Assembly: GCF_003003215.1 (NCBI RefSeq)
Contig: NZ_PVUF01000004.1
Location: 186,001-250,000 of the forward strand
Source: Tritonibacter scottomollicae
GTDB lineage: Bacteria; Pseudomonadota; Alphaproteobacteria; Rhodobacterales; Rhodobacteraceae
Length of the DNA stretch: 64,000 bases
Direction: 5' to 3'
Shown here: piece after piece, positions 5,462 through 7,530 of the stretch
Layout: each line of letters opens with the position of its first letter
Position numbering within the stretch: position 1 is the first letter of the stretch
Notes under the pieces: generated by a model
Seen by the model: only the letters and a program-made list of their open reading frames with translations
The model's database searches: none
Told to the model about the DNA's origin: nothing
Made by a program: the position numbers and the translations under genes

Positions 5462-5680
5462 TTGAAGCTGCAAGACCAACGTTGTGGCGGATGCCGCAAG
5501 TTGCTATTCAAACTGGAGCCCGGCGCACTTGTCGGGGCGTTGTCTATCAAATGCCCCAGGTGCCGCGCTCATATCGAATTGAGGCCCTTGAGCCCTTCAC
5601 CAGAACGCCCCGAGCGTGACGGAAAGGACCGGCCTAGTGCCCAAATCCCAAACCATCCCATTGCCGCCTCTACCGGCTGA
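5462..5680 (+). CDS. com: Com-like zinc-finger translational regulator
   Basis: 72 residues from a TTG codon at 5462, with GGAG (5449-5452) 9 nt upstream. Four cysteines in two CxxC pairs (C8/C11 and C31/C34) and the flanking residues RCGGCRKLLFK and IKCPRCRAHIEL match the Com protein of phage Mu closely. Mu Com is a small zinc-binding RNA-binding protein. It melts an inhibitory stem in the mRNA so that the overlapping mom gene is translated late in infection. Here com overlaps the next gene by 44 nt and leads a four-gene cassette, so a similar control of the downstream modification genes is likely. The family call is strong; the target is inferred. Confidence 0.85.
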   Translation: MKLQDQRCGGCRKLLFKLEPGALVGALSIKCPRCRAHIELRPLSPSPERPERDGKDRPSAQIPNHPIAASTG

Positions 5681-5819
5681 TACCCACGGCAAACCCAAGG
5701 GCAAGCGCTACAAACAGCAGTTTGGCGTGATTGCCCTTGTCCAGGACGAGCAGGCGCAGAAAGCGCTGTTCGAGCGGCTGACCTCCGAAGGCCTCAAGTG
5801 CAAGGTGGTGAACACATGA
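5637..5819 (+). CDS. Small conserved phage protein (60 aa)
   Basis: 60 residues from GTG 5637, preceded by GGAAAGG (5621-5627); a GTG at 5616 is possible but lacks a ribosome site. The gene lies in a different frame from com and overlaps its end by 44 nt, as mom overlaps com in Mu. The sequence is a basic linker (KPKGKRYKQQ), then FGVIALVQDEQAQKALFERL, then LKCKVVNT: a small alpha/beta unit of a type common in phage genomes and without known function as far as I recall. The stop overlaps the start of the ABC-GNAT gene (ATGA). Confidence 0.6.
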   Translation: MPKSQTIPLPPLPADTHGKPKGKRYKQQFGVIALVQDEQAQKALFERLTSEGLKCKVVNT

Positions 5820-6892
5820 AGATTACCGTTCACCACCCGTCGCCCATTCCCGCAACCTATCGTGCAGCGCGGGTGTCCAGCCTGTTCAATGTCGAAGGCG
5901 ACGCGGACTTCAAGATCAGCTTTGAAGCCCCTTTGAAGGACCGGCCATGGCAGGTCGGTCTGATCAAGGGGCCGTCAGGATCCGGCAAAAGCTCCATCGC
6001 GCGCCGCCTGTTTGGCGCGCGCCGGGTCAAATGCGCCAACCGCTGGCCGGGCAAAGGGGCCATCGTGGATGAGATCACCCCTGACGGGTCGTTTGATGCG
6101 GTGACGGCGGCGCTGTCGGCGGTGGGGCTTGGGTCGGTGCCGTCCTGGCTTCGCCCCTATGCTGCCCTGTCCACGGGTGAGAAGTTCCGGGCCGATCTGG
6201 CGCGCGTACTGTGTGAGCGGCCCGGCCTTTATGTGATGGATGAGTTCACCTCCGCCATCGACCGGCGGGTGGCGACCATTGCGGCCGGGGCATTCGGCAA
6301 GGCCTGGCGGCGCGGGGCAGGGCAGTTTGTCGCCGTGGCCTGCCACGATGACGTGGAGGACTGGCTGCAGCCCGATTGGGTGATCGACACCGGCCGGGGC
6401 GGTGAGTTTGCATGGAGGCGTCTTCGACGATGCCCCAGCCTCGAAGTCGACATCCACCAGGTCGACGGCAGCCTCTGGCCCGCCTTTGAGCCGCATTACT
6501 ACCTGAAATTGAACGCGATGCCGAACGCTGCCTATTTTGTCGGCCGGGTCAACGGCGAGGATGTCGCGCATGTCGCATTCTCGCCGCGCCCTGGCATGAC
6601 GGAAATCCGGGCAAGCCGCCTTGTGGTCATGCCAGAATGGCAGGGCGCGGGCATCGGGCTGCGGTTCCTGAACGAGCTGGCGGCGCTGTGGCGGCGCGGG
6701 CTGAACCGTTGGGAGAAGCCGCTGCCGACGCTGTTCCACACATCCCACCCCGGCCTCGCGGCGGCGCTCCGGCGCGATCCGCTCTGGGCGCAGACCTCGG
6801 CTGCGCTGCACGGGGCCACAAAGAAACCGCTCAAATACGGTGGCCATTTCCGGCCGGTGCAGGGCTTCCGCTACATCGAGGGCATGGCATGA
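5816..6892 (+). CDS. ABC ATPase-GNAT fusion, candidate Mom-like DNA modification enzyme
   Basis: 358 residues from ATG 5816 (ATGA overlap with the gene before). Residues 1-205 form a complete ABC-type ATPase: Walker A GPSGSGKS (52-59), signature LSTGEKF (118-124), Walker B LYVMDE (138-143), D-loop SAIDR (146-150) and switch His177. No membrane segment is present, so this is not a transporter subunit. Residues about 210-330 are a GNAT-type acyltransferase with the cofactor loop VMPEWQGAGIGLRFL (271-285). Mu Mom, which converts adenine to an acetamido form, is also a GNAT-fold protein translated under Com control. I infer a role in modifying phage DNA bases, with the ATPase supplying energy or DNA remodelling. 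The chemistry is unknown. An alternative is a GNAT acting on protein or tRNA. Confidence 0.7.
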   Translation: MKITVHHPSPIPATYRAARVSSLFNVEGDADFKISFEAPLKDRPWQVGLIKGPSGSGKSSIARRLFGARRVKCANRWPGKGAIVDEITPDGSFDAVTAALSAVGLGSVPSWLRPYAALSTGEKFRADLARVLCERPGLYVMDEFTSAIDRRVATIAAGAFGKAWRRGAGQFVAVACHDDVEDWLQPDWVIDTGRGGEFAWRRLRRCPSLEVDIHQVDGSLWPAFEPHYYLKLNAMPNAAYFVGRVNGEDVAHVAFSPRPGMTEIRASRLVVMPEWQGAGIGLRFLNELAALWRRGLNRWEKPLPTLFHTSHPGLAAALRRDPLWAQTSAALHGATKKPLKYGGHFRPVQGFRYIEGMA

Positions 6893-7431
6893 AGGTTCTT
6901 CTCTTCGGCAACAAACACCTCGGCGCGCTTGTCCTGGACATGCTTCTGGCGCGGGGCCACGAGGTCACGGTGGTCACGGCAGACGCTCAGAATGCCTGTG
7001 CGGTCTGGGCGTCGCGGCTTGGCGTGAACACCATCGTGAAGGCAAACAGCATGCCGCTGGTGGGGGAGGACATCCCGGCCGGGCTTGACCTGATTGTCTC
7101 GGCGCATTCGCACCGCGTCCTGCCGGGGTGGGTGACCGCGCGGGCAGGGCGCGGCTCTGTCGGCTATCACCCGTCGCTCTTGCCCCGGTTCAAGGGCCGC
7201 AATGCGATTGCCGACGCGCTGGCCGCTGGCGTGCCGTTCACCGGTGGGACGGTCTACCACCTGACGGGGGAGCTGGACGGCGGCGCGGCGGTGCGGGCGC
7301 GGGGGCGTGCGTTGCAGCGCGCGGTCCAGGTCATTTGGGGGGAGAGTGCCGCGCAGATCTGGCGGCGCGCCCTACTGCCCTTGGGGGTGGAGCTGCTCAC
7401 CGCTGCGGTTGAAGAGTTCGAAGGGGCTTAA
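6889..7431 (+). CDS. Phage formyltransferase-family protein, single catalytic domain
   Basis: 180 residues, a lone formyltransferase Rossmann domain related to PurN and the N-terminal half of methionyl-tRNA formyltransferase. The nucleotide-binding start is KVLLFGNKHLG; the core motif is HPSLLPRFKG (94-103); the conserved Asp is in GELDGG (D130). The usual catalytic Asn of the N-x-H motif is Gly here (G92-Y-H94), a visible departure. There is no C-terminal tRNA-binding domain. It overlaps the ABC-GNAT gene by ATGA and so belongs to the cassette. By the family, the donor would be 10-formyltetrahydrofolate. The acceptor may be the amino group made or used by the GNAT, which is inference. Confidence 0.75.
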   Translation: MKVLLFGNKHLGALVLDMLLARGHEVTVVTADAQNACAVWASRLGVNTIVKANSMPLVGEDIPAGLDLIVSAHSHRVLPGWVTARAGRGSVGYHPSLLPRFKGRNAIADALAAGVPFTGGTVYHLTGELDGGAAVRARGRALQRAVQVIWGESAAQIWRRALLPLGVELLTAAVEEFEGA

Positions 7432-7469
7432 ACGCCCCTTCAATCCCATGTCAGACCAAAACCGCGTTG

Positions 7470-7530
7470 CTGTAAAAAAGTCTGTAAATCACTGTAAAAA
7501 AGTCCGTCACGCTACAACAAAGACGCTACA
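7470..7530 (+). repeat. Direct repeats at probable prophage right terminus
   Basis: CTGTAAAAAAGTC occurs at 7470-7482 and again at 7492-7504, 22 bp apart, with a partial copy (CTGTAAATCA) between. ACGCTACA occurs at 7509-7516 and 7523-7530. Read inward from 7530 the end begins TGTAGCGTC. Mu-family transposases bind several ~22-bp-spaced sites at each phage end and the terminal dinucleotide is CA, so this block fits a transposase-binding end. Confidence 0.5.

Follow-up and report, generated by a model that had tools for sequence, protein, structure and literature searches.

What is made by the genes behind com at the right end of a Mu-like prophage of Tritonibacter scottomollicae, where an ABC ATPase-GNAT fusion and a formyltransferase-fold protein are encoded? 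The prophage in the DNA analysed (the window, a stretch of 64,000 nucleotides) was identified as Mu-like by profile search (MuA, PF02914, E 1.8e-48; Mu portal, PF06074, E 1.8e-93). Between tail-fibre genes on one side and the prophage right end on the other lie four genes (Table 1), all of which were open reading frames as the original prediction had it. ATGA overlaps link the ABC-GNAT gene to its neighbours, the stop of the small-protein gene overlapping its ATG and its own stop overlapping the ATG of the fourth gene. From the sequence evidence below, the segment 5462–7431 is very probably a DNA-modification cassette, and would be late and Com-controlled. To this extent the original prediction, a Com-associated DNA-modification cassette, was upheld; the kinship with Mom and the order of acyl transfer and then formylation that it also proposed were not.

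Table 1. Features of the cassette and its surroundings (window coordinates)
Feature	Position	Strand	Basis
com, translational regulator with a zinc ribbon (CxxC pairs: two); starts at TTG	5462..5680	+	PF10122, phrog_6417, phrog_13819
Predicted hairpin inside com	5594..5628	+	MFE folds, alignment of relatives
Small protein, stand-alone ParB-like C-terminal tail, likely GTG start, ~60 aa	5637..5819	+	phrog_28816
ABC ATPase-GNAT acyltransferase fusion, 358 aa	5816..6892	+	phrog_11143, PF00005, PF00583
Formyltransferase-fold protein, 10-formyl-THF-dehydrogenase type	6889..7431	+	PF00551, family profile
Exchangeable cassette; C5-cytosine methyltransferase in its place elsewhere on the contig	5631..7419	+	Self-BLAST
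Right end of the prophage, conserved, carrying short repeats	7420..7516	+	Contig self-BLAST, comparison with L124

Com had been recognised from its two CxxC pairs, and a genuine Com was confirmed by PF10122 (E 7.5e-8, 32.2 bits against a gathering cut-off of 22.9), phrog_6417 (9.5e-12) and phrog_13819 (gpCom, 8.9e-6). It was 36% identical to Mu Com in alignment, and C8, C11, C31 and C34 were invariant among 15 aligned Coms, Mu included. The whole genome gave two com matches, the window's com being one of them. In Mu, Com controls translation of the following gene. A hairpin was predicted in MFE folds of the window and its relatives, its 3′ arm pairing with the Shine-Dalgarno AAAGGA (5623–5628) of the small-protein gene; L294, lacking the hairpin, was excluded from the alignment. 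On nine hand-picked sequences, a small set within a coding region, 95.6% of alignment cells were paired (equalled in 2 of 500 shuffles), two of the ten pairs had two-sided changes (29/500) and covariation was 0.144 (1/500; 0.022–0.094 for slid versions), and there was no excess of further pair types over shuffles (500/500 as high). These folds are no more than suggestive of control by Com over the translation start of the small-protein gene.

To see what com leads to elsewhere, IMG/VR viral contigs were searched with the Com of Mu and 14 others taken from ABC-GNAT loci, a query set biased towards ABC-GNAT, and the first gene after com was classed by tblastn of seven proteins, Mom among them. 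The best-scoring 80 of at least 220 confirmed com loci were surveyed, these being the best per scan and not a random sample. In all 80 com led to a methyltransferase or to ABC-GNAT, starting at most 226 nt past com: the first recognised gene was a DNA methyltransferase in 62 and ABC-GNAT, sitting behind the tail gene, in 18. Mom was the best match at none of the 80. By a 12-mer test 71 of the 80 loci were distinct, with ABC-GNAT in 12 of those. The methyltransferases comprised 33 C5, 18 + 2 N6/N4, 8 D12 and one other (L151, domain PF13489, which by eye also appears to carry a ParB part). These counts allow for five loci (L139, L154, L166, L185 and L187) where the best-scoring D12 gene lies ~1 kb off and a C5 gene comes first; L192 was a weak match (43 bits).

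The same exchange was found within one genome. A second Mu-like prophage end on the contig keeps com and the right end, with a C5-cytosine methyltransferase between them. The two ends were 94.3% identical over 669 bp up to window position 5630 and 93.9% identical in a 98-bp match at 7420–7516, with no BLAST match between 5630 and 7420, so that homology breaks off just past the Shine-Dalgarno of the next gene. Together with the survey, this swap bore out the predicted link of Com to DNA modification. The cassette in the window thus resembles the com and DNA methyltransferase cassettes of Mu-like phages, with which it has com, the Shine-Dalgarno and the right end in common within one genome, but has a putative acyl-transfer cassette in the methyltransferase's place.

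The small protein is a real gene, matching phrog_28816 (E 4.2e-9). It likely starts at GTG 5637, 8 nt past AAAGGA, rather than at GTG 5616, and ends at 5819. An HMM built from three stand-alone small proteins matched 148 ORFs and no shuffled ones; 44 of the 148 were at least 150 aa long, and in 42 of these 44 presumed ParB-like ORFs the match lay at the extreme C-terminus. It fell inside full-length ParB-like matches such as L004 and L012 (PF02195 present in L012, below threshold in L004), and phages without com carry a ParB-like protein upstream of the same ATPase. What had been called simply a small protein is therefore a homologue of the C-terminal tail of a ParB-like protein, and probably serves as an adaptor for ABC-GNAT.

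The third protein matched phrog_11143 (E 2.6e-122), and both PF00005 (3.2e-7) and PF00583 (2.3e-4) were above cut-off, with PF13508 just below. Among 60 aligned relatives the invariant positions were G52, S54, G55, K58, S119, G121, D142, E143, D149 and H177 in the ABC part and V270, P273, Q276 and G277 in the GNAT part, where G279 and G281 were kept at ≥90%; we take these to be Walker A, signature, Walker B, D-loop, H-loop and acyl-CoA loop. The ABC part has a Walker A, a signature, a Walker B with its Glu and an H-loop, and the GNAT part the acyl-CoA loop Q/R-x-x-G-x-G/A, in agreement with the predicted fusion of a complete ABC ATPase to a GNAT. Acyl transfer to DNA by the GNAT is probable. 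As a presence tally phrog_11143 was rejected, all 292 genomes of the window's order and 14/14 controls being matched through ordinary ABC ATPases. The strong intact loci among these 292 genomes were L093, L094 and the window only, and one further genome had two truncated ABC-GNAT copies (one of them L096). By host names, relatives occur in phages and prophages of Proteobacteria, Bacteroidota, Actinomycetota, Bacillota and others. A PADLOC match to mad3 (1.1e-11) was confined to residues 113–192 of the ABC part.

The fourth protein (FMT-like) has the formyltransferase fold (PF00551, E 3.9e-16) that had been predicted. As a lone query the window's protein matched GART best (4e-10); the family profile, searched against structures, matched the N-terminal domain of 10-formyl-THF dehydrogenase (Nt-FDH, 6.9e-47) ahead of Met-tRNA formyltransferase (2.5e-28), the best PurN/GART (1.1e-17), HoxX (1.2e-13) and the formylation domain of linear gramicidin synthetase (1.6e-12). 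Amine formyltransferases (PurN, Fmt, ArnA: Asn-x-His ... Asp) need the catalytic Asn (PMC4388273, in part). Among 113 FMT-like proteins (those with >120 aligned residues, near copies included) this Asn was kept in none, and His, Ser and Asp were kept in all 113; Asn-x-His was kept in 2/2 cyanophage PurN-like controls. The window's protein has H94, S96 and D130, with G92 in the place of Asn, and this position is Gly in 84/113, where FDH has Ile. The proteins are thus of the FDH/HypX type, and a plain formyltransferase reading was rejected by the missing Asn and the best profile match. According to the part of PMC4388273 that bears on it, in Nt-FDH Ile104 stands at the Asn position, the attack on the formyl group comes from a thiol, and H106, S108 and D142 form a kind of triad; for HypX, the corresponding part of PMC6802093 proposes formyl-CoA by the same chemistry with a modified triad, formyl-CoA being without direct proof. 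Folate binding by the FMT-like protein is putative only, because the FDH Phe89 position is varied (among the 113, F in 61, K in 20 and Y in 18; the window's protein has V) and because most of these proteins have A72/H73 at positions where FDH has other residues. Compared with the N-terminal domains of ALDH1L1 (10-formyl-THF dehydrogenase) and HypX, the phage protein is alike in profile, FDH being its best structural match, and in having the FDH-type His/Ser/Asp and a non-Asn residue at GART-N106, but is short and stand-alone, beside a GNAT and without a carrier or dehydrogenase domain.

Co-conservation of the four genes in other phages had been set beforehand as the point on which the prediction would fall. 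Of the best 80 genome loci among 246, 77 had sufficient flanking sequence, and 37 of these 77 carried com, tail, ABC-GNAT and the formyltransferase-fold gene as a set. So did a phage in culture, Pseudomonas phage Komp_PAO1_1, whose com lacks an annotation; conservation of the set is beyond chance. The system is also carried by Gordonia phages, several of them cultured, including Axumite with an FMT-like gene. The FMT-like gene adjoins ABC-GNAT in 68 of the 77 loci, and at L352 the two are fused in one ORF. In a quick LG+G4 tree of ABC-GNAT, which carried a long-branch warning, the FMT-like gene was present in 101/111 scorable rows of one clade (SH-aLRT 100) versus 0/38 of the rest. This tree omits near-identical rows, and with them some that have no FMT-like gene, such as L292 and L296; also omitted are genes that were split or short and repeated reads of the locus in the window. 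Tenacibaculum phage pT24 is not among its rows. GNAT residue 252 was His in 118/118 members of the FMT clade versus Phe in 37/39 of the clade without the partner, and the FMT clade had G342 (116/118), G343 (117/118) and H344 (117/118). Within the FMT clade the gene was missing from ten of 111 scorable members, and the GNAT can therefore live without the FMT-like protein or use a host donor.

The order of formyl activation and then GNAT transfer is favoured because the catalytic Asn is missing from all 113 members and the family profile fits 10-formyl-THF dehydrogenase best. By family resemblance, the FDH-type protein would move formyl from 10-formyl-tetrahydrofolate to a pantetheine thiol, probably that of CoA, giving formyl-CoA, and the GNAT would pass it to an exocyclic amine of a phage DNA base, adenine N6 or cytosine N4. 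We know of no precedent for free formyl-CoA as a GNAT donor. The ABC ATPase might load the enzyme on DNA or open the base, and the ParB tail might dock the complex, standing in for the full-length ParB-like partner that other phages have. The gene arrangement is observed; by the Mu precedent Com would free the start of the first cassette gene, and the mark would therefore be made late. It would shield phage DNA against host nucleases. To this whole account, formation of a formyl-thioester by an FDH-type protein and then GNAT formylation of a DNA base under Com control, we give a probability of roughly 0.45; that the acyl group is formyl is put forward tentatively.

That the acyl group is acetyl, with ABC-GNAT using acetyl-CoA on the base and the FMT-like protein in an accessory role (as a hydrolase of formyl-THF, or as one that trims or takes off acyl groups), is rather unlikely. 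GNATs normally take acetyl-CoA, the clade without an FMT-like partner works alone (0/38 scorable rows), and plain acetylation could be the ancestral function of ABC-GNAT. ASCH-domain genes also recur downstream where the FMT-like gene is absent: one lay within 600 nt at 14 of 69 such loci having at least 600 nt of flank, a tally in which seven of the 14 are HMM seeds, L080 is weak (E 0.02) and the ASCH frequency in phages is uncontrolled. Another stood at seed L006, with a shorter flank and outside the 14/69; at the 47 loci with an FMT-like gene ASCH was found only at L043, 4.8 kb away. PF04266 was above cut-off in five of seven ASCH proteins scanned, and the link of these neighbours to ABC-GNAT is a lead only. 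In the parts of the two papers concerned, the E. coli ASCH protein YqfB hydrolyses N4-acetyl-deoxycytidine (PMC6972931) and isolated Nt-FDH is a hydrolase (PMC4388273). However, acetylation leaves unexplained the overlap coupling of the FMT-like gene and its fusion at L352, the triad kept in 113/113 proteins and the changed GNAT residues of the FMT clade. The order first proposed, in which the GNAT adds an amino-acyl-like group whose amine the FMT-like protein then formylates, agrees with the gene order, the ATGA coupling, the formyltransferase fold and the related domain of linear gramicidin synthetase, which acts on a tethered aminoacyl group. It is improbable: the Asn that amine formyltransferases need is gone in 113/113, FDH is the nearest relative by profile, and profile search of the cassette's other genes gave no aminoacyl-activating domain.

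A protein or RNA target (e.g. host RNA polymerase, ribosome or aminoacyl-tRNA) in place of DNA is still less probable. Passages of PMC7824862 discuss phage GNATs modifying host proteins, and passages of PMC7641849 discuss GNAT-EVE systems as possible aminoacyl-tRNA acetylators. Against such a target, com led to a DNA methyltransferase at 62/62 loci without ABC-GNAT (best 80 of at least 220), the cassette is swapped for a DNA methyltransferase within one genome, and the partner is ParB-like, that of Gordonia phage Axumite resembling a type II methyltransferase N-terminus (PADLOC MTase_II, 1.2e-7). Least credible is a divergent Mom making the Mom base, glycinamide-adenine. The place after com at the right end is that of Mu, and the two profiles share a short, weak HHY match (E 0.0013 for a single comparison) that would allow a remote kinship, but hhalign gave a probability of 18% over 48 columns with 4% identity, the QGxGxG loop kept by ABC-GNAT was absent by eye from six aligned Moms, and Aeromonas phage PX29 has Mom and ABC-GNAT as separate genes. 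The window's cassette and Mu com-mom are alike in the Com protein, the right-end position and the overlap of com with the next gene; the enzyme here is not Mom by profile and comes with an extra ATPase, a ParB tail and a folate-enzyme-like protein.

The combination had been thought undescribed. For its core this did not hold: section 3.4.7 of PMC7824862 already predicts, citing Iyer 2013, DNA-base acylation by phage ABC ATPases that are coupled to a GNAT, the arrangement found in the window protein, and the window's ABC-GNAT matched Tenacibaculum phage pT24, an example of that system, by tblastn (3e-32, 33.6% identity). The two share this core and a DNA base as the predicted site of acylation; that section differs in making no mention of an FDH-like partner, a separate ParB tail or Com control. 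The literature searched, Iyer 2013 being outside the search, likewise held no description of any of these with ABC-GNAT, nor did it report an enzyme that formylates DNA by acyl transfer. The relevant parts of the papers on LE3/LE4 (PMC6078989) and on Leptospira transposable prophages (PMC8705779) contained nothing on DNA modification by ABC-GNAT.

Phage DNA formylation in which an ATP-driven GNAT, supplied with a formyl-thioester by the FDH-type enzyme, writes N-formyl-adenine or N-formyl-cytosine, with a sister clade lacking the folate enzyme that writes acetyl and has ASCH readers or erasers, is possible and somewhat doubtful. If formylation is true, one-carbon folate metabolism would be linked directly to a DNA mark, and a predicted, uncharacterised family of phage DNA acylation would gain a concrete chemistry. 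Cultured carriers (Pseudomonas phage Komp_PAO1_1, several Gordonia phages) put the question within reach of mass spectrometry. Com appears as a switch for exchangeable DNA-modification cassettes.

Four overlapping genes on the + strand (5462–7431) were originally predicted to form a DNA-modification system at the right end of a Mu-like prophage, and all four were confirmed by open frames and profile matches. The small gene and the third gene (ABC-GNAT), and the third and the fourth (formyltransferase-fold, FMT-like), were each coupled by an ATGA overlap. A MuA transposase gene (PF02914, 1.8e-48), followed by an AAA ATPase in the place of MuB, was located ~31 kb upstream of the cassette, and a Mu portal ~21 kb upstream. 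Judged by eye, the gene beyond the prophage right end looked like host mraZ. A related prophage end of Tritonibacter mobilis (L292), without a formyltransferase-fold gene, lay beside similar flanking DNA.

Features of the cassette and of comparison loci (plain coordinates, window; L-numbers, fetched loci; L124, another stretch of the window's own contig, C4)
Feature	Position	Strand	Evidence or remark
com	5462–5680	+	TTG start; PF10122 7.5e-8, above cut-off; phrog_6417 9.5e-12
AAAGGA	5623–5628		8 nt before GTG 5637
Small gene	start probably GTG 5637	+	phrog_28816 4.2e-9
Third gene, 358 aa		+	phrog_11143 2.6e-122; ABC_tran and GNAT domains
Fourth gene	6889–7431	+	Formyl_trans_N 3.9e-16
Flank similar to L292	7880–8110		91% identity over 232 bp, upstream of mraZ-looking gene
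Second com with its methyltransferase	L124:3968–5042 (C4:149968–151042)
SEFIR/TIR-domain gene	L124:5849–7309
KAP P-loop NTPase	L124:8913–11132
ParB_N gene	L124:13123–14079		immediately 5′ of MuA transposase
com of Komp_PAO1_1	L002:3683–3931		unannotated
Axumite gene 3	L004:1805–2452
Gene annotated aspartate decarboxylase, phage Jace	L005:5086–5511		after ABC-GNAT
Single open frame for ABC-GNAT plus formyltransferase-fold protein	L352:1245–2846		single MAG contig
ASCH gene downstream of ABC-GNAT, no formyltransferase-fold gene	L066, L067, L068, L084–L087, L006, L009, L012, L208, L209, L237, L240; L080		L080 weak

Viral contigs were scanned with 15 Com proteins, and the DNA after com in the best 80 of at least 220 confirmed loci was searched by tblastn with seven reference proteins. 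A match was found in all 80 (weak in L192). The first gene encoded a C5 methyltransferase in 33 loci, an N6/N4 enzyme in 18 + 2, a D12 enzyme in 8, another methyltransferase in one (L151) and ABC-GNAT in 18; Mom was first in 0/80. Methyltransferases started within 217 nt of the com end; ABC-GNAT, which is preceded by the small gene, began no more than 226 nt from it. In five of the C5 loci (L139, L154, L166, L185 and L187) a D12 methyltransferase followed ~1 kb on. By a 12-mer test 71 of the 80 loci, including 12 with ABC-GNAT, were distinct. Since the com query set favoured ABC-GNAT, the methyltransferase majority was not an artefact of the query.

The whole genome contained two com matches; the second sat at another prophage right end, on the window's own contig and ~41 kb upstream. 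Identity between the two ends was 94.3% over 669 bp that took in a tail gene and com and ran as far as window position 5630, and 93.9% across the 98 bp of the right end itself. Between these shared parts, a C5-cytosine methyltransferase (PF00145, 2.9e-26) replaced the window's three genes, and homology broke off right after the Shine-Dalgarno sequence. The methyltransferase was apparently frameshifted, its N- and C-terminal halves seeming to lie in different frames. This swap and the 80/80 com loci bore out the predicted Com-linked cassette by association, which strongly supported the four-gene set as a DNA-modification cassette. Two genes that lay between the prophage parts, one with a SEFIR/TIR domain and the other for a KAP P-loop NTPase, were possibly defence genes.

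A hairpin sequence able to pair with the Shine-Dalgarno sequence was common to com loci of three cassette kinds (ABC-GNAT, C5 and D12). In an alignment of nine hand-picked sequences, from which L294 (folded without the hairpin) was left out, 95.6% of cells were paired. Double-sided changes numbered four, in two of ten pairs (shuffles as high in 1/500 and 29/500), and further pair types were no more numerous than in shuffles. This was a hint, not proof, of Mu-like control by Com.

The cultured Pseudomonas phage Komp_PAO1_1 carried the small-protein gene, ABC-GNAT (54% identity) and the formyltransferase-fold gene in the window's order, with com in front, where the deposited annotation had another frame. 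The same three genes were found in a Porphyromonas phage record. In Gordonia phages ABC-GNAT was accompanied by a ParB-like gene and by a formyltransferase-fold gene of the family described here (gene 3 of Axumite, see table), which six of ten records labelled “tRNA-methyltransferase”. An ABC-GNAT relative occurred in 53 of 50,697 named-phage records. Among 77 genome loci with enough flank (from the best 80 of 246 confirmed), the FMT-like gene adjoined ABC-GNAT in 68 and com was present in 44; by HMM, 71 matched the tail but not a full ParB, five had a full ParB-like gene and one had neither. All four genes were present in 37 of these 77, so that co-conservation, seen also in Komp_PAO1_1, was upheld. 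A Pasteurella-type group had the ParB-like gene upstream in 45/45 loci and the FMT-like gene in 0/45. No formyltransferase-fold match was detected within the fetched stretch of the Gordonia/Rhodococcus phage Jace.

A quick tree of 157 ABC-GNATs placed every FMT-linked member that it included in a single clade of 118 (SH-aLRT 100), in which 101 carried the gene, 10 lacked it and 7 reached a contig end first; of the other 39, none had it, 38 lacked it and one was cut off. Its presence changed 10 times in all. The clade was marked by distinctive GNAT residues: H252 in 118/118 (F in 37/39 others), W275 (118/118), G342 (116/118), and G343 and H344 (117/118 each). On one MAG contig both proteins were in a single frame. 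Two near relatives of the window, L292 and L296, were left off the tree because other rows were almost identical to them; both lacked the FMT-like gene, indicating that it was separable.

A profile built from three stand-alone small proteins matched 148 ORFs and no shuffled ORFs. Of the 44 matched ORFs of at least 150 aa, counted by length rather than by ParB domain, 42 had the match ending at the C-terminus. The tail match fell within full-length ParB-like matches (e.g. L004 and L012). Among three ParB-like proteins scanned, PF02195 was detected in L009 and L012 and was below reach in L004; the L009 protein gave no tail match. Most simply, the small protein would be a ParB-like partner's tail that is retained where a ParB domain is missing, and it may dock on ABC-GNAT. 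The ParB_N gene on the same contig could supply the ParB function missing from a tail-only cassette.

Searched singly, the fourth protein matched GART best (4e-10). Its family profile matched the N-terminal domain of 10-formyl-THF dehydrogenase (FDH, 6.9e-47), then Met-tRNA formyltransferase (2.5e-28), sugar formyltransferase (1.2e-24), ArnA (1.1e-20), PurN/GART (best 1.1e-17) and HoxX (HypX, 1.2e-13). All 113 FMT-like proteins conserved the FDH triad residues (His, Ser, Asp), whereas the GART catalytic Asn position held G (84), I (19), A (6) or V (4); two cyanophage PurN-like controls retained Asn. In Nt-FDH, where Ile104 stands in place of Asn and its change to Asn leaves <10% activity, the attack on the formyl group comes from a thiol (PMC4388273); in ALDH1L1 4′-phosphopantetheine carries the formyl (PMC8748788), and HypX was proposed, without direct proof, to transfer formyl to CoA (PMC6802093). 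Thus, the most economical reading was that the FMT-like protein supplies a formyl-thioester to the adjoining GNAT.

An ASCH-domain gene lay ≤600 nt downstream in 14 of 69 loci without the FMT-like gene (7 of the 14 were search seeds); among 47 loci with it, only one had such a gene, 4.8 kb away. The products of these downstream genes may read or erase an N-acyl base. YqfB, an ASCH protein of E. coli, is a hydrolase of N4-acetyl-dC and N4-acetyl-dCTP (PMC6972931); this activity and the ASCH recurrence weakly suggest that systems without the FMT-like gene may acetylate cytosine. Aeromonas phage PX29 (L011 and L288) carried both a Mom-like and an ABC-GNAT gene, indicating that they were not mutual substitutes in that phage.

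The pairing of a GNAT with an ABC ATPase had already been predicted to acylate a DNA base, a modification that is uncharacterised (PMC7824862, citing Iyer 2013). A ParB-acetyltransferase fusion that binds GTP was mentioned in a survey of ParB-CTPase folds from 2025, whose main text contained neither “GNAT” nor “formyl” (PMC12704722). A literature search covering few subscription papers recognised no description of this gene combination or of DNA formylation. The original prediction had likened the GNAT to Mom and had placed acyl transfer before formylation; kinship with Mom was not supported, nor was the order, the fourth protein being FDH-like and without the catalytic Asn. Most likely, the FDH-type protein would first activate formyl and the GNAT would then transfer it to a DNA base, in a cassette under Com control.
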